DNA of 40,357 nt from Cytophagales bacterium. Its GTDB lineage: Bacteria > Bacteroidota > Bacteroidia > Cytophagales > Cytophagaceae. The stretch is taken from positions 1 to 40,357 of the forward strand of contig JAAFID010000011.1 in the NCBI GenBank assembly GCA_013297765.1, given 5' to 3'. Positions within the stretch are counted from its first letter, which is position 1. The number at the start of each line of letters is the position of its first letter. Positions 11,493-27,114 of this stretch are shown here, piece by piece. The translations under genes were made by a program, and so were the position numbers. Under the pieces are notes generated by a model. The model made no database searches. It was not told the DNA's origin and saw nothing but the letters and a program-made list of their open reading frames with translations.

Positions 11493-13445
11493 TTATTTTT
11501 TCAACCAAATGGTGAAACCACCATTTCCCAAAAGGCTTACTTTTAGTGGCGAACCAGCAGTGTATTCTAGTTCCTCCACTTTTATTTCTGTCGCTTTTGC
11601 ACCATCTTTCAAAATCATCATTTTGTATTTTTCTCCATCTTTCAAAAATGGCAATTTTAAATCTAGTTCTTTCGTTAGATTTTCTCCGTTTGCACCTGCT
11701 ACAAACCATTCCTCGCCTTTCTGACGGGCTAGTACCATCAATTTACCTGGTTCGCCATCTATAAATTTAGTATTATCCCAAGTAACAGGAACTGCTTTCA
11801 TAAAAGATTTCGTTTGGGCATTGAGGCCTCTGTATGGTGCTGCCCTATCGGCAAAGTGCAACAAGCCAGATTCGAAAAGCACCGACAAAGCCAATTCGTG
11901 GGCGTTGCTGGTAGTGTGTGGGCAGCATTCGTAATCGCTAAAGGTAACAGGCGTATAGTCCATTGGCCCAACAACGTTGCGGGTGCACATTACTACCGTG
12001 TTGTGCGATGGGGCCTCTTTGGCAAATGCAGAATCCCAGCCGTATTGCTCGGCACCTTTTATGGCTTCCATAGACATCAAATTGGGGTAGGTGCGAGACC
12101 AGCCTCTAGGCAATGTACAACCATGAAAATCTATTAAAATATTAGCATCGGCGGCATCTTTCAATATATCTAAGTATAATTTGATAATGTCTTGTTTATC
12201 CGACTGAAAGAAGTCAATCTTTACACCTTTCACGCCCCAAGCATTCAATTTTTTAAACTCTTCTTTTCTTTTCACCGCATCCGACATGATGTCTCTGGGT
12301 CGCTCGGTTACTTTGTTGTGTACGCCACCAGAGTTGTACCACAGTAGTAAGCCAATTTGTTTTTCATTGGCATATTTCACTAGTTCTTCAATGGTTCCAC
12401 CTTCCATAATGTCCCAGTTGGCATCTACCAGTGAATATTCCCATCCCATTTCTTTGGCCAAATCGACAAAGTTTTTGAGGCTTGAAAACGTTTTGCTACC
12501 TGTATGCTCTCCCCACCAGTTCCACGATGCACGACCTGGTTTTATCCAGCTCACATCACTTACTTTGCTAGGTGCTGCCAAATCATGAACTAAATTTGAT
12601 TCTATTATTGTACCCAAAGATTTGCCAATGATAATGGCACGCCAAGGCGATTGAAATGGTAGGGTAGTAGTTGCTGTAATCTCACTTGTACCTAAGCCTT
12701 CGCCTTTTTCTGGCAACCTTATTTTGTACACGCCACCTTCGCTATTTTGTTGCAAATGCGATGCAAAGTAATTTTCTGCTAAGCCAGCTTCGGTAATTAA
12801 AATCCAATTGTTTTTGCTGTGAAACAATGCAGGAAAACTCCATCCGCTGCTGTCCTTTGCCATTGCCCCAATAGCCGAGCCATTGGTAAAGCCTTGCTCA
12901 TAAGCTGGACCCCAATCGTTAGGGATACCGTAGCTTTGCAACCAAGCCTTCCCTTCTGTAGGTATTGCAAATCCTGTGGCTTCTGCATTGATGGTCACTT
13001 TTTCTGTGCCTTCGGCAAACTGGTACCTGAAGGCCACACCATCGTTGTAGGCACGTGCAGCAATTTGCAGCGGTGCACCATTTTTATTTTTTAGCGAAAT
13101 GATGATTTCATTTCCCAAATTTCTATTTTCTTTTCTCTTGCCAATAGTCATGGTATAGGCCTCGTCTATCACCTTTGCGGGCGATACTGATACAAATGAA
13201 AGTTCATCATTAAATTGCTGGTCTGCACGAGTGATACCAAGTGGCGACTTGCCCACTGCGGTATCGCTACCACTAAGTACGGTGTAAAATAGTTGTCCAC
13301 TTTCGGCAAATACCGATAATTGTAAACTACTATCGGGCGAGGCGACAGACCATTTGGTTGCAGTAGTTTCTTTCTGCCCATTGCAGGCATAGAGTGAAGC
13401 CAACAGCACTAGGCTGCTGAAAAATTGTAAGGCGTTTTTTTTCAT
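11493..13445 (-). CDS. GH97 family glycoside hydrolase, lipoprotein (alpha-glucosidase/alpha-galactosidase type)
   Basis: A 650-residue enzyme with a lipoprotein signal peptide (Cys21 in LYACNG), so periplasmic or membrane-anchored. It has the three GH97 parts: N-terminal beta-sandwich (about 30-280, with YGIPNDWGPAYEQGF), catalytic barrel (about 290-560, starting KPGRASWNWWGEHTG, with YSLVDANWD) and a C-terminal beta-sandwich to WLKK. Asp411 in GVKIDFFQSD lies where retaining GH97 enzymes carry the nucleophile, and Glu466 in KGAEQYGW fits the acid position by spacing; inverting SusB-type enzymes lack the Asp. This points to a retaining member, of which the known ones are alpha-galactosidases, but substrate is an inference. 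No SusC/SusD pair is next to it. Transcription probably starts from the box at 13517-13524. Confidence 0.92.
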   Translation of the reverse strand: MKKNALQFFSSLVLLASLYACNGQKETTATKWSVASPDSSLQLSVFAESGQLFYTVLSGSDTAVGKSPLGITRADQQFNDELSFVSVSPAKVIDEAYTMTIGKRKENRNLGNEIIISLKNKNGAPLQIAARAYNDGVAFRYQFAEGTEKVTINAEATGFAIPTEGKAWLQSYGIPNDWGPAYEQGFTNGSAIGAMAKDSSGWSFPALFHSKNNWILITEAGLAENYFASHLQQNSEGGVYKIRLPEKGEGLGTSEITATTTLPFQSPWRAIIIGKSLGTIIESNLVHDLAAPSKVSDVSWIKPGRASWNWWGEHTGSKTFSSLKNFVDLAKEMGWEYSLVDANWDIMEGGTIEELVKYANEKQIGLLLWYNSGGVHNKVTERPRDIMSDAVKRKEEFKKLNAWGVKGVKIDFFQSDKQDIIKLYLDILKDAADANILIDFHGCTLPRGWSRTYPNLMSMEAIKGAEQYGWDSAFAKEAPSHNTVVMCTRNVVGPMDYTPVTFSDYECCPHTTSNAHELALSVLFESGLLHFADRAAPYRGLNAQTKSFMKAVPVTWDNTKFIDGEPGKLMVLARQKGEEWFVAGANGENLTKELDLKLPFLKDGEKYKMMILKDGAKATEIKVEELEYTAGSPLKVSLLGNGGFTIWLKK

Positions 13446-16215: not shown

Positions 16216-16245
16216 TGATTTGAAAATTTAAGTTTGATAGTACTA

Positions 16246-16253
16246 CAAACATA
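16246..16253 (-). promoter_or_regulatory. Candidate -7 box of the VOC gene
   Basis: The minus strand reads TATGTTTG, fitting TAnnTTTG, 31 bp before the ATG. A CTTG lies 21 bp further upstream (16275-16278), a near match to the -33 element at slightly long spacing. Confidence 0.5.
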
Positions 16254-16356
16254 AGTATTTATAGGTGTTTTTTTCAAGTTGAGTAGATGCTTTTTTATCT
16301 CAATTTAAAACCGCAATTTTGAACTCTTCACTACAACCCACTTTCAAATTTAAAAC

Positions 16357-18594
16357 ATGAAAAAAATATTCGCTCTACTATCAATACTATTGCTTTGTCA
16401 TTTACTATCTGCCCAAAAACTGGTGGTAGATATGCAGCATTTTTTACAAAAACAAGATCCAATTTGGGACACCACGCACACCTATTTTTATGAAGGAGCT
16501 TTTATAGGCAATGGCCTCGAAGGGGCTATGGTGTATAGAGAAGATTCCAATGCCTTACGATGGGATATCAACCGTACCGACCTTACTGCACCATCGCACA
16601 ACCCAGAGTACACTAGGGCTAGATTTGGGGTGGGGAAATACATATTGCGACCACAAGGAAAAATATTGACTACTTCTATGCGGTTAGATTTGTGGAATGG
16701 ACAACTTATTGGCCATATTACTACCACCAAAGGAAGCATTGATTTTGTCTCGTACGTACACCACGATGCAAAGGTGATGGTGACAGAATTTGTAGAAAAG
16801 GGCGAACAAGTTTCTTTTAATTATGTACCTGAGCAAGCAAAAGTAATCAAAGAATACCAATGGATAGAGAGCAGCACTATTTACGATTATCCTGCAAAAG
16901 CTATTCAAGAATTGAAGGTAGAAAATATCCAAGTTTCCCGACAAGAATTTAAAGAAGAGAAGACCTATTTTGAAGTAGCACATAGTGAAATAGCCCAAGT
17001 AGGAAAACGGATTTTTTTCAGCACTATTGGTACCAACGTACCTTTTACCACCGATACTACTGCTGCATTGACTAGGGTTAAGAGGGCTATGAATACTGGT
17101 GCAGCTACACTTTACCAAACCCATCAAGCATGGTGGCATCAATACTATCAAAAAACATTTGTAAGCATACCCGATGCTAGGCTAGAAAGTTTTTATTGGA
17201 TACAGCTATATAAACTGGGCTCTTCACTACGTGCAGATGGTCCTCTGCTCGATTTGATGGGGCCTTGGTATGCCCATACGCCATGGCCTGCAATATGGTG
17301 GAACCTGAATGTGCAACTGACCTACTCGCCTTTGTACTCTTTAAATCAATTAGATTTAGGCGAAACTTTATATAAAACTTTGGATAAAAATACTGCCAAT
17401 TTGATAAACAACGCACCTGAACCATTTCGGTACAATGCTGCTGGTATAGGCAGAGTCACTACTTACGACCTAAAGGGTGAAGTCAATTTATTGCATAGCA
17501 AATTTCCTTATTACGACAAAGAGCCCGGCAACCTTCAGTGGATTATGCACAATTATTTTATGCAATACCGCTATACGATGAACGATTCTATGTTATTGCG
17601 TCGCATATTTCCTTTGTTGAAACGCAGTACCAATCTTTATCTTGACATTATAGTGCAAGATGCGGCGGGCAAATACCATTTGCCAGAAACCTTCTCGCCC
17701 GAATATGCCCTTACCAAAGATGCCAACTACGACCTGTCGTTGCTAAAATGGGGCTGCCAAACGTTGCTGTTCATCAATCAAAAATTTGGGTTAAAAGATG
17801 CTTTAAATTCAAAATGGAACGATGTATTACAAAATTTAACCCCCTTTCCTACCGATAATACTGGACTACGCATAGGGGCAGATACCAGCTTACTTACCTC
17901 GCACCGCCATTTTTCTCACTTATTAATGATATATCCATTGCGGTTGTTGTCTTGGAATAATTTGGCCGACCGACCTATTATACAGCAATCGGTAGACCAC
18001 TGGCTAGGGCTAAAGGGTGGCCATGCTGGCTATACTTACACTGCCGCTACAGCCATCAACGCATCGATGGGGCGAGGCGATAGTGCATTGAAATATTTGA
18101 ATATTTTTTTAGACTATTTGCCTTGCAACACCCTTTACCGAGAGGCTGGTCCTGTGATAGAAACGCCTTACGCAGCAGTAAATTCTATGCACCAAATGCT
18201 ATTGCAAAGTCATGGCGAATATTTGAATGTGTTCCCCGCTATGCCTAACACCTGGGGCGATGCTGCATTTCATCAACTACGTGCCGAAGGAGCATTTTTG
18301 GTAAGTGCAAAACGCCAGCAAGGCAAAACTCAGTGGATCATGATAGAAAGTTTGGCAGGAAGCGTATGTAAAATCAAACTAGATTTTAATGCTTTAAAGC
18401 TGATTGTAAAAGGAAAAAGAAAGCACAATTATACAATAGGTGAAAACAATATTTTTACCATTGATTTAAAAAAAGGAGAAAAAATAACGATTGCAGAAAG
18501 TGAAATACTTGCAAATATAACAGAGGTAAATAGTGTGGGAAAGCCCAATTGTTATGGAATGAAATTTAAAACCAAGTTTACCTCTAAAAAATAG
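16357..18594 (+). CDS. Secreted glycoside hydrolase, GH95-like (alpha/alpha)6 barrel
   Basis: A 745-residue protein with a signal peptide (MKKIFALLSILLLCHLLSAQK, cut after SAQ). An N-terminal beta-sandwich contains GAFIGNGLEGAMVY and WDINRTDL, like the GNG-LGAM and N-DTLW segments of GH95. The central helical barrel has WWNLNVQLTYSP (Asn316 and Asn318 match the catalytic Asn pair of the Bifidobacterium fucosidase AfcA), LPETFSPEY (Glu449 at the acid position) and MLLQSHGEYLNVFPAMP, a family hallmark. The usual DGNFG motif before MLLQSH is replaced by VIETPYA with Glu602. Known GH95 enzymes release alpha-L-fucose or galactose; substrate here is uncertain because of this change. It is followed after 24 bp by the 7TM receptor gene, so they are probably co-transcribed. 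A weak TTTT-N19-CAATTTTG lies at 16291-16321. Confidence 0.78.
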   Translation: MKKIFALLSILLLCHLLSAQKLVVDMQHFLQKQDPIWDTTHTYFYEGAFIGNGLEGAMVYREDSNALRWDINRTDLTAPSHNPEYTRARFGVGKYILRPQGKILTTSMRLDLWNGQLIGHITTTKGSIDFVSYVHHDAKVMVTEFVEKGEQVSFNYVPEQAKVIKEYQWIESSTIYDYPAKAIQELKVENIQVSRQEFKEEKTYFEVAHSEIAQVGKRIFFSTIGTNVPFTTDTTAALTRVKRAMNTGAATLYQTHQAWWHQYYQKTFVSIPDARLESFYWIQLYKLGSSLRADGPLLDLMGPWYAHTPWPAIWWNLNVQLTYSPLYSLNQLDLGETLYKTLDKNTANLINNAPEPFRYNAAGIGRVTTYDLKGEVNLLHSKFPYYDKEPGNLQWIMHNYFMQYRYTMNDSMLLRRIFPLLKRSTNLYLDIIVQDAAGKYHLPETFSPEYALTKDANYDLSLLKWGCQTLLFINQKFGLKDALNSKWNDVLQNLTPFPTDNTGLRIGADTSLLTSHRHFSHLLMIYPLRLLSWNNLADRPIIQQSVDHWLGLKGGHAGYTYTAATAINASMGRGDSALKYLNIFLDYLPCNTLYREAGPVIETPYAAVNSMHQMLLQSHGEYLNVFPAMPNTWGDAAFHQLRAEGAFLVSAKRQQGKTQWIMIESLAGSVCKIKLDFNALKLIVKGKRKHNYTIGENNIFTIDLKKGEKITIAESEILANITEVNSVGKPNCYGMKFKTKFTSKK

Positions 18595-18618
18595 TAAACC
18601 ATATTGATAGATTGTACA

Positions 18619-20382
18619 ATGAGGAAAAAAAAACAATGCGTATGGATACAACTATGGGCAATGTCGCTATTGACATTATTTATAATACCGAATGGTGTTG
18701 TTGCAGAAGAGTATAAATTAATATATGAAGATAAGGGTCAAATATATCTAGACACCACAGAAAAACTTACTATTAAAGAGGTTACTGCTACAAAATTTGA
18801 CCATAATTTTAAAGATGCAATGGGTGCAGACGCTGTACTTCACAATTTTGAACATAGTTATTGGTATAGATTTAAAATAATCAACCGCTCTCATCATTTA
18901 GATTTGGTTTTTCGGCCACTTATCAATGCTCATCCGCTAGAAGTCTATTTTCAAAATGGAAACCAAGTATTTACAAAAGCGAAAATATATAAAACATTCT
19001 CTTTTTTAGGGTTAAATATCCCAATGCCAAAGCCCTACTTTGTATTGCACCATCCTCAAAGTACACAATTTTGTTATATCCGACTAAAAGTCAATTACTA
19101 TACAGGTATAGGCTACGAAGTGAGAGCCCTACCAGATTTATTAAGAGAATACATCGGCAATTTTAGCTATTTCGGTTTTTTTGTAGGGGTAGTATTGGTT
19201 ATCACTTTGTTCAACCTAGCGCTGTTTTACAAGTTGCGAGAAAAAATTTACTTCTATTATTTTACCTATACCTTGAGCCTTGCACTTTATGCACTGGTTT
19301 CTTGGGGATTTTTAAATTCTTTTTTGTTTAGCACCTTTTGGCTTAATTTAATATACTCTACGCCATATTCTTGTATCACTTTGTCGTTGCTATGCTACAC
19401 ACAACATTTTTTTCAAGCAAAGAGACGTTATCCTCAACTGCACATTATCTTAAGGCGAACGGTAGTCGTCAAATTGATATTATTTCTAATTAGCATTAGT
19501 ACAGGATATTATTTTTTAATGAATAGATATACTGATAATTTGCTACTGGTGCCTGCACTCATCTTAGGCTTGCTAGCATTTAAAGATGGATATAAGCCAG
19601 CACTGTATTTTCTTATCGCCTTATTTATTATTTATTTGGGAATGCTGATTACCGCATTATCAAGTATCTTAAATATACAAGATTCAGATATTATTTTATT
19701 TAATCTAGCTTTATGCGAAATAGTACTATTTTCTATTGCACTAGCCGATCGATTGCGAAACTTGAAAAGAGAAAAAGAAATGGCACTTCAGCAAACAGTA
19801 GCCATTCAAGCCAATAAAAATAAAGAATTGGAAGAAAATGTAGCACAGCGTACAGACGAACTAAAATTGGCTAGTTTGGAAATAGTAAGAATGAATGAAT
19901 TGTTGAAAAGCTACACTAAAAAACTAGAAACCAAAGTAAAGGAAGTTTCTCAAGAAAGGGTAGTAAACAAGCAATTGGATTTTGAAGCATTTAAGGAAAT
20001 ATTTCCCGATGAAGAAGCCTGCCTCAAATACCTCTCAGAATTAAAATGGAGCAAGGAATTTGAGTGTCGCAAATGCCAAAATACAAGTTATTTCTTAGTA
20101 AAAAATTCGTTAAGTAGAAGGTGTACCCGTTGCCGATATATAGAATCGCCAATGGTTAATACCATATTTGACAATATAAAATTTCCGTTGGTAAAGGCAT
20201 TTTATTTGTTATTTGTAGTGAGTAGCGGTATGGAAATATCCATAGAGCACCTTTCTAAAATGATGGAATTGAGAAGTGCCACTTGTTCATCATTTAGAAA
20301 AAAAATATTATCAACCATTCGTGAAACCAAAAAAGCAAAAGGCAGCAGTGCCTGGAGCAATCTTATTTTACAAAAGTTATAA
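18619..20382 (+). CDS. 7TMR-DISM membrane receptor with C-terminal transposase-type zinc ribbon
   Basis: A 587-residue protein. After a signal sequence (WAMSLLTLFIIPNGVVAEE), residues about 30-165 form a periplasmic sensor of the 7TMR-DISMED2 type (SYWYRFKIINRSHHLDLVFRP; IRLKVNYYTG). About seven hydrophobic helices follow (about 178-380: FGFFVGVVLVITLFNLALFY, YYFTYTLSLALYALVSWGFL and others), then a coiled coil (about 385-445). Instead of a histidine kinase or cyclase, the C-terminus (about 462-570) looks like an IS1595-type transposase N-terminal region: FPDEEACLKYLSELKWS, a zinc ribbon with Cys483, Cys486, Cys502 and Cys505, then TIFDNIKFPLVKAFYLLF and a helix-turn-helix-like SIEHLSKMMELRSATCSSFRKKI. 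No transposase catalytic domain is present. ATG 18619 is preferred over the upstream TTG at 18604. It may be a membrane-bound transcription regulator; unproven. Confidence 0.85.
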   Translation: MRKKKQCVWIQLWAMSLLTLFIIPNGVVAEEYKLIYEDKGQIYLDTTEKLTIKEVTATKFDHNFKDAMGADAVLHNFEHSYWYRFKIINRSHHLDLVFRPLINAHPLEVYFQNGNQVFTKAKIYKTFSFLGLNIPMPKPYFVLHHPQSTQFCYIRLKVNYYTGIGYEVRALPDLLREYIGNFSYFGFFVGVVLVITLFNLALFYKLREKIYFYYFTYTLSLALYALVSWGFLNSFLFSTFWLNLIYSTPYSCITLSLLCYTQHFFQAKRRYPQLHIILRRTVVVKLILFLISISTGYYFLMNRYTDNLLLVPALILGLLAFKDGYKPALYFLIALFIIYLGMLITALSSILNIQDSDIILFNLALCEIVLFSIALADRLRNLKREKEMALQQTVAIQANKNKELEENVAQRTDELKLASLEIVRMNELLKSYTKKLETKVKEVSQERVVNKQLDFEAFKEIFPDEEACLKYLSELKWSKEFECRKCQNTSYFLVKNSLSRRCTRCRYIESPMVNTIFDNIKFPLVKAFYLLFVVSSGMEISIEHLSKMMELRSATCSSFRKKILSTIRETKKAKGSSAWSNLILQKL

Positions 20383-20524
20383 AGCTAATAAATGAACGTT
20401 TGGTTCCAGATTATCCATATAAACTTACTAAAAACCTAGTGGGTACTGAACTGTTTTTTGTCGGCTTTAAAAACAAAAAATAATAATATATAAAAAATTG
20501 ATAAACAAAATATTGATATTCTAA

Positions 20525-20538
20525 TTGATGTGCATCAA
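20525..20538. promoter_or_regulatory. FNR/CRP-family-type box TTGAT-N4-ATCAA
   Basis: TTGATGTGCATCAA is an exact match to the FNR consensus half-sites. It lies about 110 bp upstream of the inferred transcription start of the thioredoxin-like gene. A chance match in 40 kb of AT-rich DNA is possible, and no CRP/FNR gene is in the window. Confidence 0.4.
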
Positions 20539-20603
20539 GGTGTAAATAAGATTTGATTTTTTTGTTGTAAAATATAAAAATATGCTTTGGTTTGTAGATT
20601 TTT

Positions 20604-20634
20604 TTTCTAAACTCTAATTTATAATTTACTTTTG
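20604..20634 (+). promoter_or_regulatory. Promoter of the thioredoxin-like T9SS gene
   Basis: TTTC (20604-20607), 19 bp, TACTTTTG (20627-20634): one mismatch from the Bacteroidota consensus with exact spacing, 57 bp before the ATG. Confidence 0.6.
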
Positions 20635-20691
20635 GATAGTTGCCACTTTTGATTGGCACTAAAAAATAATTCTTCTAAACCATAACAAAAC

Positions 20692-21477
20692 ATGAAAAAA
20701 TTAATACTTGCATTAAGTTTCTTTATCGGCATAGAAACACTCATCGCTCAACCTACAAACTGGCAAAATTTTTCCGCAACAGGATGCGATGGCAAAATGA
20801 AATCTTTAAAGACCACGATACAAACTGAATCAAAACCTATGATATTAATTTGGGAAGGTTTTGATTGTGGATTTTGCAGAGAAGAAGGGTCTGAATGTGC
20901 GGTTTCAGCTCAAACCTACGGAAAAACAATCATTTATTGGAATGCATTTGGTAGAATAAATGGCAATGCTACTTGCAAGGAAGCAGCATCATGGGCTACT
21001 GAATATGGCACGCCAGCAAGTAACTTTGTTTTTTTAGATGCCCCGGCTGAAGACAATTGGTCACAACCATCACCTGGACAAGGGCGTTGGTACTTTGTAA
21101 TTTCTCAAGATAAAGTTTCTAAAGAATTGAAAATTATATATTCTGGAAACATCATCAAAGATGCAGAGGTAGTGGCTCGTAGAGCTACCAAAGATTTTCC
21201 TACAGCAAATGAATCAAGCGAATCTATATTGACTAGTGCGAAACTATTTCCAAATCCTGCTAATGAAAGCATTAATTTTCAATTGCAGTTAAAATCTACT
21301 GCTGCTGTAAGTGCTGAAATAGTAGATTTGACAGGCAAATCTTTAGGGGTGATTTTAAATGGTGCATACCAATCGGTAGATAAATCAATAGACTTAAATG
21401 GATATGCTAAAGGGATGTACTTTGTAAAATATACAGTTGATGGTATGCCATTTAGCCAATTATTTACAATTAAATAA
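20692..21477 (+). CDS. Secreted thioredoxin-like protein with T9SS type A sorting domain
   Basis: A 261-residue protein: signal peptide (MKKLILALSFFIGIETLIAQ), a domain of about 150 residues, and a C-terminal sorting domain (about 182-261) with AKLFPNPANESINFQL, AEIVDLTGKSLGVIL and GMYFVKYTVDG. The first domain has MILIWEGFDCGFCREEGSECA, where Cys59-Gly-Phe-Cys62 sits after a beta strand as in thioredoxin-fold proteins; this suggests a disulphide or peroxiredoxin-like activity at the cell surface, but family assignment is tentative. A further Cys pair (Cys68 region and the TCKEAASW Cys) could form structural disulphides. It is followed 37 bp later by a lipoprotein, with no terminator between, so they are likely one transcript. 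Confidence 0.82.
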   Translation: MKKLILALSFFIGIETLIAQPTNWQNFSATGCDGKMKSLKTTIQTESKPMILIWEGFDCGFCREEGSECAVSAQTYGKTIIYWNAFGRINGNATCKEAASWATEYGTPASNFVFLDAPAEDNWSQPSPGQGRWYFVISQDKVSKELKIIYSGNIIKDAEVVARRATKDFPTANESSESILTSAKLFPNPANESINFQLQLKSTAAVSAEIVDLTGKSLGVILNGAYQSVDKSIDLNGYAKGMYFVKYTVDGMPFSQLFTIK

Positions 21478-22320: not shown

Positions 22321-25300
22321 ATGAAATTCTTCAAATTTACCCTTTCTAGTGGCTGTACAGTGCGTGTTTTAACATTCTTTTGTATCGTTTTTTTTCAAAT
22401 CAACTATCAAGCAAATGGGCAAACGAGAATATGCAACATCCCATTATTTAGCAAAGGTTGCAACAGTGCAAGTATAGCCTCTATTGCTATTGTAGATGCT
22501 ACAAAAGATACAGTTTTTAGCTTTACCAGCAAAACAGTTTGTGACCAACCAACAGAGATACCTGCAATAAGTACTATAGCCCTAAAGCCAAACAACGAAT
22601 ATACCTTATATGTAAAAACTGCCACCACTGGGTACAGTATTGGTGCTTTTTTGTCAAACGATGGAGATTTATTTTACAACGAGATAGGAGTAGATAATGT
22701 AATCAATCTAGTTAGTAGCGCAAGCAATGTTGTTGCGTCGAAGTTTACGGTTTCTGGCCAAAATGGCAGTACTTTAAGAATGAGGATACTATCCACTATT
22801 GGCAAAAGAAGTTACGTGCTAAACGACGCATGTACAGGAGCTGATTTTGCACAAGGAGAGTTTGAAGACTATGTGTTCAATATAAGAAACTGTAATTTAC
22901 CTAGAGGATTTTCTGCCGGGCAGAACGATACTATTTGCATTGGCGGTTTTGATACACTTAATGGAACTTTTTTAAATAATGCTACTATCAAATGGAGTCC
23001 TTCAAACTTAGTATTGCAACCCAACAACCCATCGACCAATACAGCTGTACTTAATGCAACCACTACATTTACCTACTCGGCTATCAATGATACGAGTAGA
23101 TGCAGATATACAGATGCAGTTACTATTTATGTAAACCCTACCCCTTCGGCAAAATCATATATTGCCGAGGTGCAAAAAGGAAACCGTTGCCCCTATCCTG
23201 GCAATGAACTTAAAATCTATCTTGACCCCACAGTTACCACCCCCGTTCTCTATCAATGGTATAATAAAGCAGGATTGATTAAAGGTGCTACAAAGAGTAC
23301 CTATATTGCCACTACATCTGACACCTACTATGCCACCATTCAATACAAAAAATCTTGTGCGGTTACCAAATTAAACAGCATAACCATAGACCTAATCCCA
23401 GCAGAAATACACACCATAAGTACCACCAGCAATGTGCTATGCCCCAAAGGAAGCCTAAACTTAAAATCATCATTGCCAGCTTCGGGCTACAGGTTTCAGT
23501 GGGCCAAAATAAACAAACCTCTTACTGCCAATATTGACGATACGGTAGCTATAAATAATGAAACCAATAGCCAGATTGCAATTAAAGATACAGGTAGATA
23601 CATCTTATTGGCTTACAACATCAGTACAGGTTGCATTTCATTCAATAAAGAGGGAAACATCAAAATAGTACCCTCTACAATATCAGCCGCAATTGCCAAG
23701 CAAAGTCTTGGATATTGCCCCAATAGTTCCGTAGCTATTCAAGCTGTGTACTCGCCAAAGAATGTGACTTTTCAATGGATGTACGGTTCATCAGGATTGC
23801 CTATTGCCACCAACAGCAGTAAAGAAGTTTACAATGCTTCAGAATCGAAAAGTATATTTGTAAAAGTAAGCGATGGCAGTTGTACCGTAAACTCTGATAC
23901 CGTTTACCCACGGCAGGTAGAATTATTTAAAGTGGGTCTTTCAACCGCATCAGATTGTAAAGGAGCTTCCACTCAGATAATTTCTAATTATGATGCCAGC
24001 CTTGCGAACTACAAATTTGCTTACGAATGGTATTCAGGTAAAGAAGGTAATCCAATAGATGCTAGTGAAACTAAAACGTCTAATTATCCATACGCTATAG
24101 CCCCCTCAAAAGTAGGTGTAAAATATTTTTTAAAAGTAGCTACTGAAGATGGTAAATGTTCAGAGACAGCGGCTATTACAGTTCCTACTAAGCCACAACC
24201 TTTCAAAATACTAGCCGATAATGATACTATTTGTGAAGGAACTGGAACCTTTATTACCAACAATTTAAAATCGCCATATTTTGAATGGACAATGCCAAAC
24301 AAGACATCTATTTCTAATACTGCATCATTTTATACAAATTTAGAAGGTTGGCATTTTGCTAATGGTATTATAGTAGATGCAAATCAAAACGAATGTTTCG
24401 TTCGAGATTCTATATATATAACTGTACTAAAGAAACCTACCATTACCCCAAATCTTAAATATGCTGATACTACAGTATGTGCCCCTAAAACAGTAACATT
24501 GGAATTGATAGGAGATACCAAAAATATTAAAAGTTACGAATGGACTAACTATGGTGAAATAACTGTAGAAGGGGCTAATAAATCTATTTTTGAAGCTACC
24601 CAAAGTGGCGATTATACAGCACTTGCCATAGGGCTAAATGGCTGCAAATCGGACAATAGCAATAGTAAAATAGTAACGATTAATGATTTACCTGCTGCTG
24701 CCAAATGGTATTCTTACAACCAAAATGAAAGAACCACAACCCAAATATGCAGTGGAGACAGCCTTTTTACCAATATTTCTGCAATGCCCAAGGCCAATGA
24801 TATTGTAAACATTTCTTTATTGTTGAATAATGCAGTAGTAAAGCCGATAGATTCAGGTACAAACAATTTGTATTACCGAATAAAACTAGCGGGTGATTAC
24901 ACTGCTAGAGTAACCAATACCATAACAGGGTGTATTGCCGATACCGTGGTAAAGGTGATAGCTATAGCCTCGCCACAGATAAAAATACACAGAGATAGTA
25001 CTTTCTGTACCAATAATACTTTTGTACTCAATACCAACTATGGTGCAACCTATAAATACCTGTGGATCGCTGATAATGGAACTATTGCAGATACTACATT
25101 GAATGAAACCAATTTAAGTTTATTTTCTACTTTTATTCCACCTCAAATAAAAGTTTCGCTAAGAGTAACTGACCAAGTAACCAGTTGCATAGCTACCGAT
25201 ACTTTCTTGCTTACCGTAATCCAAAATTTTACAGTAAACTCTCAAACAGGTTCTCCCGAGTGTAGTGGTGGTCTTGGCTATGCCAAAGCCATACCTCTAG

Positions 25301-27114
25301 GCGGCAAAGCACCATTTCAATACTTATGGAACGATGCTGATAACCAAACCAAAGACAGTATTTTGGTAAAATCTGGAATATATAGTGTTGCAGTCAAAGA
25401 CAGCAGAGGGTGTAGCAATTCGGCCCAGCAAGTTATTGTTCAAAATAAAGGCTTTTCTAACATCATCATAGACACTGTAAAATATTTGCCCCCTACTTGT
25501 GGAAATATACCCAATGGAGAAATAGAGATAGATACCAACAGTACTTTAGGCAAAACAACTGTAAAATGGACTGCGGGAACTATAAATTTGGGCAGTAGCT
25601 TAAAACTTAGCAACCTTAAAGGAGGCACCTATACAGTAACCGTTTCAGATATATTAGGCTGCAAGTCTGCTACTTTTGAATTTGCTGATCCTATTGCTGC
25701 TACTTCAGGAACCATAGCAGGCGACAAAAGTTTAAATATAGGTACCCCAATGCCTATCATCAGCAATGTGACCTCGCCCAAGGGCAATCAAAATCTAAAA
25801 ATTCAATGGCAAAAAAGTGAAAACAAACAAACCTGGGATACCATACCTGGGGCTAACCAACTGGATTATTCACCTATAGACCTTACCGCTACTACTAGTT
25901 TTAGACGTTTGGTAACTGATGCTTGTAGCACTTATTATTCTAATATGGTCACCTATACCATGCGACCTGCACTGCCCGATTCTATTTCGGGGGTAGGTAA
26001 AGTAGGCGCACCCATTGCCATCATGATCAATAGTACCTACAAATCGCCATATACAGTGGTGCTCAGTATTGCTCCTACTAATAATCAAGGGCAATCTATA
26101 GATACGACCCTATCGTTCTCAAGTAATACCTTTTCATTTGCAAGCAAACGAGAGGGCATTTATACCATCAAATCGGTAAATGGTACAAACGTTTCTGCTA
26201 CTGCCCGAGGCAATGCGACTATTGGTAATAGCGGTGCTTTGCTATCGGGCGAGGTTACGCTAGGACAACCGTTGAAAATTGTATTTATTGGAAATATAAA
26301 ATTCAAAGTAAAGATTTATTACAACTTCTTTGCTACGCCACAAAGCAACCCCATCAAGGATTCTGTGATTTTTGACAATGAGTTGTCAAAATTTATCCCT
26401 ACCCAAACTGGTCGCTATGAGCTGCTGTCGTTGATTGATGGTAATGGCACCAAAGGTCAAGCCACGGGATTTGCCAATGTAAACCCAGTGTTCAACCCAC
26501 CTACGGCCGATATTAAGGGTGGTGGTTATGTAGGTTCTATTATCAGTATCACCATTACACCAAATAGTGGTGTAGGCCCTTGGGACGTGGAAATATTGCT
26601 AGATGATATGCCCTACAAGACCATCACTATGGAAGGGCTGGCATTTCAATTTCCATCAGAGAAGCCCGGCAAATACAAGATAAAATCGGTAAACAACAAT
26701 CGCCGAGGCAATGGCGAGGCTATAGTCATTACCATCAACCCACTTCCCGACTTGAATTCGGTATTTGTTTGGAATGCCGTATCGCCCGATGGAGACGGCA
26801 AAAACGACCATTTTGTGATTCAAATTCCGCTTTGGCTAGACAGTTTGGGTTTCAAATTTGACCTAGATATATTTGATAGAGAAGGTACATTCTTGAAAAA
26901 AATGCACGAGGTAGATGCTGCCACCCTTGGTACCACAGCCTCTAATGACATGCTAGAATACAAATGGAACGGTAAAAATGAAAATGGAGAACTATTAACC
27001 CCTGGAACTTATTTCTTCTCGTTTAAAATAAACGACAGTGCGAGTAAAAATAAACCCACCAAAGCCGAAAAGGAAAAAGCCAACAGAAGTGGGTTTTTGG
27101 AGATAAGAAGATAG
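22321..27114 (+). CDS. Large cell-surface protein with GEVED-, Ig/SprB-like repeats and T9SS type B sorting domain
   Basis: A 1597-residue exported protein. The N-terminus is hydrophobic (FFCIVFFQINYQANGQ, likely cut after NGQ). Residues about 35-190 look like a GEVED-type domain (SIAIVDATKDTVFSF ... GEFEDYVFNI). A series of Ig-like or PKD-like units of about 80-100 residues with single cysteines follows (for example YQWYNKAGLIKGATKSTYIAT). Around 975-1040, GGKAPFQYLWND ... GIYSVAVKDSRGCS is a SprB-type repeat. The C-terminus (about 1480-1597) is the gliding-motility-associated CHU_C/type B sorting domain: FVWNAVSPDGDGKNDHF ... IFDREGTFLKKM ... WNGKNENGELLTPGTYFF. The protein is probably a surface adhesin or gliding-related cargo of T9SS. 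It stands alone behind a 257-bp upstream region with no clear promoter box. Confidence 0.92.
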   Translation: MKFFKFTLSSGCTVRVLTFFCIVFFQINYQANGQTRICNIPLFSKGCNSASIASIAIVDATKDTVFSFTSKTVCDQPTEIPAISTIALKPNNEYTLYVKTATTGYSIGAFLSNDGDLFYNEIGVDNVINLVSSASNVVASKFTVSGQNGSTLRMRILSTIGKRSYVLNDACTGADFAQGEFEDYVFNIRNCNLPRGFSAGQNDTICIGGFDTLNGTFLNNATIKWSPSNLVLQPNNPSTNTAVLNATTTFTYSAINDTSRCRYTDAVTIYVNPTPSAKSYIAEVQKGNRCPYPGNELKIYLDPTVTTPVLYQWYNKAGLIKGATKSTYIATTSDTYYATIQYKKSCAVTKLNSITIDLIPAEIHTISTTSNVLCPKGSLNLKSSLPASGYRFQWAKINKPLTANIDDTVAINNETNSQIAIKDTGRYILLAYNISTGCISFNKEGNIKIVPSTISAAIAKQSLGYCPNSSVAIQAVYSPKNVTFQWMYGSSGLPIATNSSKEVYNASESKSIFVKVSDGSCTVNSDTVYPRQVELFKVGLSTASDCKGASTQIISNYDASLANYKFAYEWYSGKEGNPIDASETKTSNYPYAIAPSKVGVKYFLKVATEDGKCSETAAITVPTKPQPFKILADNDTICEGTGTFITNNLKSPYFEWTMPNKTSISNTASFYTNLEGWHFANGIIVDANQNECFVRDSIYITVLKKPTITPNLKYADTTVCAPKTVTLELIGDTKNIKSYEWTNYGEITVEGANKSIFEATQSGDYTALAIGLNGCKSDNSNSKIVTINDLPAAAKWYSYNQNERTTTQICSGDSLFTNISAMPKANDIVNISLLLNNAVVKPIDSGTNNLYYRIKLAGDYTARVTNTITGCIADTVVKVIAIASPQIKIHRDSTFCTNNTFVLNTNYGATYKYLWIADNGTIADTTLNETNLSLFSTFIPPQIKVSLRVTDQVTSCIATDTFLLTVIQNFTVNSQTGSPECSGGLGYAKAIPLGGKAPFQYLWNDADNQTKDSILVKSGIYSVAVKDSRGCSNSAQQVIVQNKGFSNIIIDTVKYLPPTCGNIPNGEIEIDTNSTLGKTTVKWTAGTINLGSSLKLSNLKGGTYTVTVSDILGCKSATFEFADPIAATSGTIAGDKSLNIGTPMPIISNVTSPKGNQNLKIQWQKSENKQTWDTIPGANQLDYSPIDLTATTSFRRLVTDACSTYYSNMVTYTMRPALPDSISGVGKVGAPIAIMINSTYKSPYTVVLSIAPTNNQGQSIDTTLSFSSNTFSFASKREGIYTIKSVNGTNVSATARGNATIGNSGALLSGEVTLGQPLKIVFIGNIKFKVKIYYNFFATPQSNPIKDSVIFDNELSKFIPTQTGRYELLSLIDGNGTKGQATGFANVNPVFNPPTADIKGGGYVGSIISITITPNSGVGPWDVEILLDDMPYKTITMEGLAFQFPSEKPGKYKIKSVNNNRRGNGEAIVITINPLPDLNSVFVWNAVSPDGDGKNDHFVIQIPLWLDSLGFKFDLDIFDREGTFLKKMHEVDAATLGTTASNDMLEYKWNGKNENGELLTPGTYFFSFKINDSASKNKPTKAEKEKANRSGFLEIRR

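Follow-up and report, generated by a model that had tools for sequence, protein, structure and literature searches.

Results

The stretch of Cytophagales DNA analysed here (the window, 40,357 nucleotides) carries on its forward strand a gene at 18619..20382 that starts with ATG and encodes a receptor of 587 residues. Three Pfam domains exceed their curated cut-offs in this protein: a periplasmic 7TMR-DISMED2 domain (residues 41-158, positions 18739..19092, forward strand; 6.5e-8, 33.1 bits against a cut-off of 22), a 7TMR-DISM_7TM seven-helix membrane domain (residues 184-378, 19168..19752, forward; 1.7e-25, 90.6 bits against 29), whose helices also appear in the AlphaFold2 model, and a zinc ribbon of the IS1595 type (PF12760, Zn_ribbon_IS1595; residues 463-507, 20005..20139, forward; 31.7 bits against 25.4). 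In the AlphaFold2 model, the last membrane helix runs on into a coiled coil as one continuous helix (residues 356-448, 19684..19962, forward). The zinc ribbon is followed by a helix-turn-helix (HTH) segment (residues 524-570, 20188..20328, forward), supported by alignment with true IS1595 transposases and by AlphaFold2, and by a receptor-specific C-terminal tail (residues 575-584, 20341..20370, forward) with an invariant Trp579. This tail is common to the receptors and stands in place of the catalytic domain, at the point where a transposase continues into it.

An earlier note, made from the sequence alone, had proposed this order of parts, and it was borne out throughout: both receptor domains are above cut-off, the zinc-binding cysteines are residues 483, 486, 502 and 505 as it had said, the HTH-like segment aligns with genuine transposases, the coiled coil after the membrane helices is present as a predicted helix, and the reading frame crosses the junction between receptor and zinc ribbon unbroken. 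It was also right that the catalytic domain is missing, as Pfam finds no DDE domain (PF12762) in the protein, where about 80 residues remain after the zinc ribbon. The four cysteines are invariant in 35 of 35 aligned receptors, and N426, L429 and R447 of the long helix are kept in at least 90% of the receptor alignment. Neither the window receptor nor the scanned members of the family with a Reg_prop head (see below) contain a histidine kinase or receiver domain by Pfam, and the window receptor has no NCBIfam name. In a Hymenobacter relative, the HTH segment is also matched by the NCBIfam IS1595 model (2e-7, below the cut-off of that model).

The AlphaFold2 model of the whole receptor (35 relatives; mean pLDDT 83.9) shows a periplasmic domain rich in beta structure, the seven helices of the membrane part, the helix 356-448 and a C-terminal domain. 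In Foldseek searches the periplasmic part matches the periplasmic domain of RetS (3jyb, E 5e-4; also 2xbz), and the DISMED2 domain is a candidate ligand-binding module. The long helix would serve both signal transmission and dimerisation. Modelled alone (AlphaFold2, 87 sequences, pLDDT 87), the DNA-binding region forms a zinc ribbon and then helices; its structural matches (VIA) are homeodomain-like but weak (Z 4-5, below 5), Foldseek gave no significant match for it, and no convincing sequence relative of this domain has a solved structure.

Immediately upstream, on the same strand, lies a gene for a GH95 enzyme with a signal peptide (16357..18594), the stop of which is 24 bp before the receptor ATG, the distance given in the earlier note. 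We regard this gene as the probable operon partner and target of the window receptor, and the intergenic region before it (16216..16356, sequence inspected) as the presumed promoter and putative operator of a GH95-receptor operon. No close ortholog of the window receptor was found with which to footprint this region. The receptor gene is itself upstream of genes for a Por_Secre protein and a 1597-residue CHU_C protein. A further glycan gene of the region, for a GH97 enzyme, lies at 11496-13445 on the opposite strand. Giant secreted surface proteins of the CHU_C or Ig_7 kind adjoin or lie near several receptors (window 22321-27114; loci L011, L015 and L016), and are possible further targets.

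The source genome (3.56 Mb, 290 contigs) encodes eight more full-length proteins of the same architecture, at 28-36% identity, making nine receptors in total. All nine PF12760 matches above cut-off in this genome sit in these receptors, and the IS1595 DDE domain occurs nowhere in it. A fragment on contig 2 (L017:4650-5012) resembles the receptor C-terminus with most zinc cysteines gone, and looks like a decayed paralog. The genome survey that the earlier note had suggested shows the architecture to be abundant in the order and the junction to be conserved among paralogs and across families: 115 of 291 genomes of the order match the DNA-binding region, about 100 of them strongly. A single genome has as many as 13 matches, and most of the strong ones lie in frames of 600-700 residues; a few frames of about 300 residues are transposases. 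None of the outcomes that the earlier note had named as refuting its reading came about. One genome of 4,433,218 bp, the size of that of Cytophaga hutchinsonii, has three matches. In the phylum, 19 of 395 genomes match, and two more families of the class have receptor-type frames; no relatives were found in viral contigs. Among the named relatives are many species of Hymenobacter, as well as Cytophagaceae, Sporocytophaga, Mangrovivirga, Flexithrix, Chitinophagaceae and Prolixibacteraceae. In 35 diverse members, Pfam finds the zinc ribbon every time, the 7TM domain in 34 and the DISMED2 domain in 30; the one member lacking the 7TM domain carries a Reg_prop and Y_Y_Y head instead, and further members headed in this way occur in Flexithrix, Prolixibacteraceae and an uncultured Cytophagales.

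We used IQ-TREE on an alignment of 148 columns to build a tree for 100 DNA-binding domains, in which all 66 receptor-fused domains and three stand-alone ones form one clade (support 99/93; inner node 95/84). Genuine IS1595 transposases fall outside and around this clade, those nearest to it are complete and carry DDE_Tnp_IS1595, and the label of fused domain versus transposase changes only once. As a single receptor clade is nested among IS1595 transposases, one domestication is the simplest history, and the tree supports both a single origin from an IS1595-family transposase and the earlier reading of the domain as a domesticated transposase module. The domain was later moved onto Reg_prop/Y_Y_Y sensor heads; with few columns for many rows the tree does not resolve its inner forks, which makes it uncertain whether heads were swapped two or three times. 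Distances between sensor parts and between DNA-binding parts are correlated (Mantel rho 0.48, 0 of 2000 permutations), with a mean identity of 44% for the DNA-binding part versus 24% for the sensor part.

Two other observations concern the surroundings of the receptor clade. A stand-alone protein of 137 residues with the same DNA-binding domain (L062:1197-1607, genome G445) is sister to all receptors in the tree, and may be either a regulator in soluble form or a remnant of the step at which the domain was domesticated. In genome G447, about ten transposase copies of the IS1595 type fall near the receptor clade (L056, L068, L071, L073, L075 and L077); the six that were compared are 71-84% identical and have no clear shared terminal repeats, which is unusual for an active element.

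The neighbours of the receptor genes are often genes of glycan degradation. Two of the paralogs are preceded on the same strand by Melibiase-family enzymes that end some 12-15 bp upstream, so that the operonic upstream gene is of the GH95 or Melibiase family in three of the nine receptors of the source genome; one more paralog overlaps a sugar transferase gene. Beside relatives in the window's family, adjacent genes include those for GH3 (four), GH18 (two), GH9, GH16 and alginate lyase. Strong GH matches account for 7 of 37 direct neighbours in this family, whereas the families listed for 55 random genes include none (p 0.001), a background in which 25 of 90 families are listed and weak GH matches could be hidden. 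In families rich in SusC/SusD, one or the other lies within two genes of the receptor at 10 of 18 loci; a simple model of random placement, based on genome sizes and the numbers of SusD, would give 1.2 (P about 2e-8). A Hymenobacter locus with an order of the GH5-receptor-GH3-SusC-SusD-PKD-GH16 type is conserved in some 30 records, a Hymenobacter receptor lies directly upstream of a SusC-SusD-GH16 locus, and a Reg_prop-headed member in Flexithrix is likewise upstream of SusC-SusD. At many loci, among them those of several source-genome paralogs, the neighbours show no evident connection with glycans.

The Hymenobacter loci also yielded a candidate operator. When the intergenic regions between receptor and SusC/GH3 were aligned for 27 loci of this type, an element GTGTGNNGTAAGYGTATA was found to be conserved between the terminator-like hairpin of the receptor gene and a promoter of the Bacteroidetes type (TTGNNTTT ... 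TATATTTG); about 24-25 bp further on it is repeated in a weaker form. Across 20 Hymenobacter genomes the pattern GTGNNSTAAGYGTRYA has 24 matches versus 3 for the reversed control, and each of the ten genomes with the main receptor ortholog carries it in the receptor-SusC intergenic region; additional matches lie before further operons of the same locus and, in some cases, before unlinked SusC or sugar-gene operons. Its apparent absence beside diverged Hymenobacter receptors proved to be due to too strict a pattern, as 6 of 10 have a relaxed version at the corresponding position. Neither the window nor the surroundings of other receptor types gave a clear match; the motif belongs to a single ortholog group, which would fit paralogs of differing specificity. 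Judged from sequence conservation, the motif may be the operator of these receptors, or another factor could bind it, and its position upstream of the promoter makes a weak argument for an activator. Transposon ends, compared with the motif, show no resemblance to it, and several transposase copies have no clear ends. The same Hymenobacter intergenic regions contain an almost invariant block, TTGTTTTTTA, just past the terminator-like hairpin of the receptor gene (for example at about 9900 in L086).

Discussion

We suggest that the window receptor is probably a membrane-bound one-component transcription regulator of glycan-use genes that arose through a single IS1595 domestication. According to this proposal, the periplasmic DISMED2 domain would sense a ligand, probably a product of glycan breakdown, and the seven-helix bundle with the continuous signalling helix would relay the state of the dimer to two cytoplasmic zinc-ribbon/HTH domains. 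These would then act on adjacent glycan-degradation genes by binding an operator close to their promoter, which in the window is probably that of the GH95-receptor operon. An IS1595-family transposase would have lost its DDE domain, its DNA-binding domain having been domesticated once, and the resulting receptor family would have spread through duplication and swapping of heads. Control of adjacent glycan genes by the receptors is supported at the level of the family, by gene neighbourhood and by the Hymenobacter promoter footprint; DNA binding itself, the ligand, dimerisation, and activation rather than repression are what we infer.

Other explanations can be weighed against this one. The zinc-ribbon/HTH end of the receptor might now recognise a protein or an RNA and no longer a specific DNA operator, since proteins and RNA are also among the partners of zinc ribbons and of trihelical folds, and the tail with its invariant Trp579 could be a protein contact. 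Such a role appears unlikely to us, because the entire DNA-binding half of the transposase, HTH included, has been retained as the best-conserved part of the protein, and because the genes are linked to target-like operons and to a promoter-proximal motif. Unlikely too, and a reading to which we attach little weight, is that these are transcription factors mainly for surface and adhesion proteins of the large T9SS/CHU_C kind, the glycosidases being mere bystanders. Several paralogs adjoin giant proteins of the Ig_7/CHU_C or Por_Secre kind, and the window gene has Por_Secre and CHU_C neighbours downstream, but these genomes have many proteins of this sort (4 of 55 random genes carry Por_Secre_tail), and linkage to SusCD and GH genes recurs across families and in operon-like positions. 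A recent, non-functional insertion of IS1595 into a 7TMR-DISM gene would account for the transposase origin of the domain but was rejected as next to inconceivable, since the eight further full-length paralogs span the junction (so that the fusion is neither chance nor recent), the same junction is shared by nine paralogs and, across the order, by roughly 100 genomes, the tree gives one old clade, no DDE remnant is left, and no pair of terminal inverted repeats brackets 18619-20382 (searched over 18350-20800).

The use of transposase DNA-binding domains as transcription factors is well known in animals and plants, and a widely distributed bacterial example in which such a domain is fused to a receptor is, to our knowledge, unusual. 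We found no published description of a transposase-derived domain in a receptor role in the open-access papers that were searched. Like the 7TMR-DISM receptors RetS, SagS and RgsP, the window receptor combines DISMED2, 7TM and a cytoplasmic helical linker; unlike them, it ends not in a kinase, cyclase or phosphatase output but in a transposase-derived DNA-binding domain, and the zinc ribbon and HTH as a C-terminal intracellular signalling module are, as far as we found, a new type of 7TMR-DISM output. With IS1595-family transposases (PF12760 plus PF12762) it shares the zinc ribbon and HTH, and it differs from them in the absent DDE domain, the lack of bracketing inverted repeats, the membrane receptor in front and the receptor-specific tail.

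Transmembrane transcription regulators, which like the window receptor join a membrane span and a DNA-binding domain in one chain, are common and enriched in Bacteroidota (PMC10269533), and the main text of that survey makes no mention of zinc ribbons, transposase domains or 7TM receptors. Architectures of the ChiS family include 7TMR-DISM joined to a DNA-binding domain, which is a different one and not derived from IS1595 (PMC8092284). The hybrid two-component systems of Bacteroides polysaccharide utilization loci (PMC11253607) are single membrane proteins that control polysaccharide utilization genes, as we propose here, and their Reg_prop/Y_Y_Y head is also found on one subgroup of our receptors, but the window receptor, in contrast to them, has no histidine kinase, receiver or AraC domain.

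The receptor is more than an isolated oddity and, as the earlier note could not have seen, belongs to a widespread family that is often linked to polysaccharide utilization loci. We think it probable that this family is a large undescribed class of Bacteroidota proteins, namely membrane-bound one-component regulators of glycan genes with an IS1595 domain domesticated once and two types of sensor, standing beside the hybrid two-component and sigma/anti-sigma systems. Culturable Hymenobacter offers motif, receptor and target locus together for a ready test. If true, the proposal would add a class of regulators to those of polysaccharide utilization, including in the cellulose-degrading Cytophaga hutchinsonii, in which regulators of cellulase genes are of practical interest.
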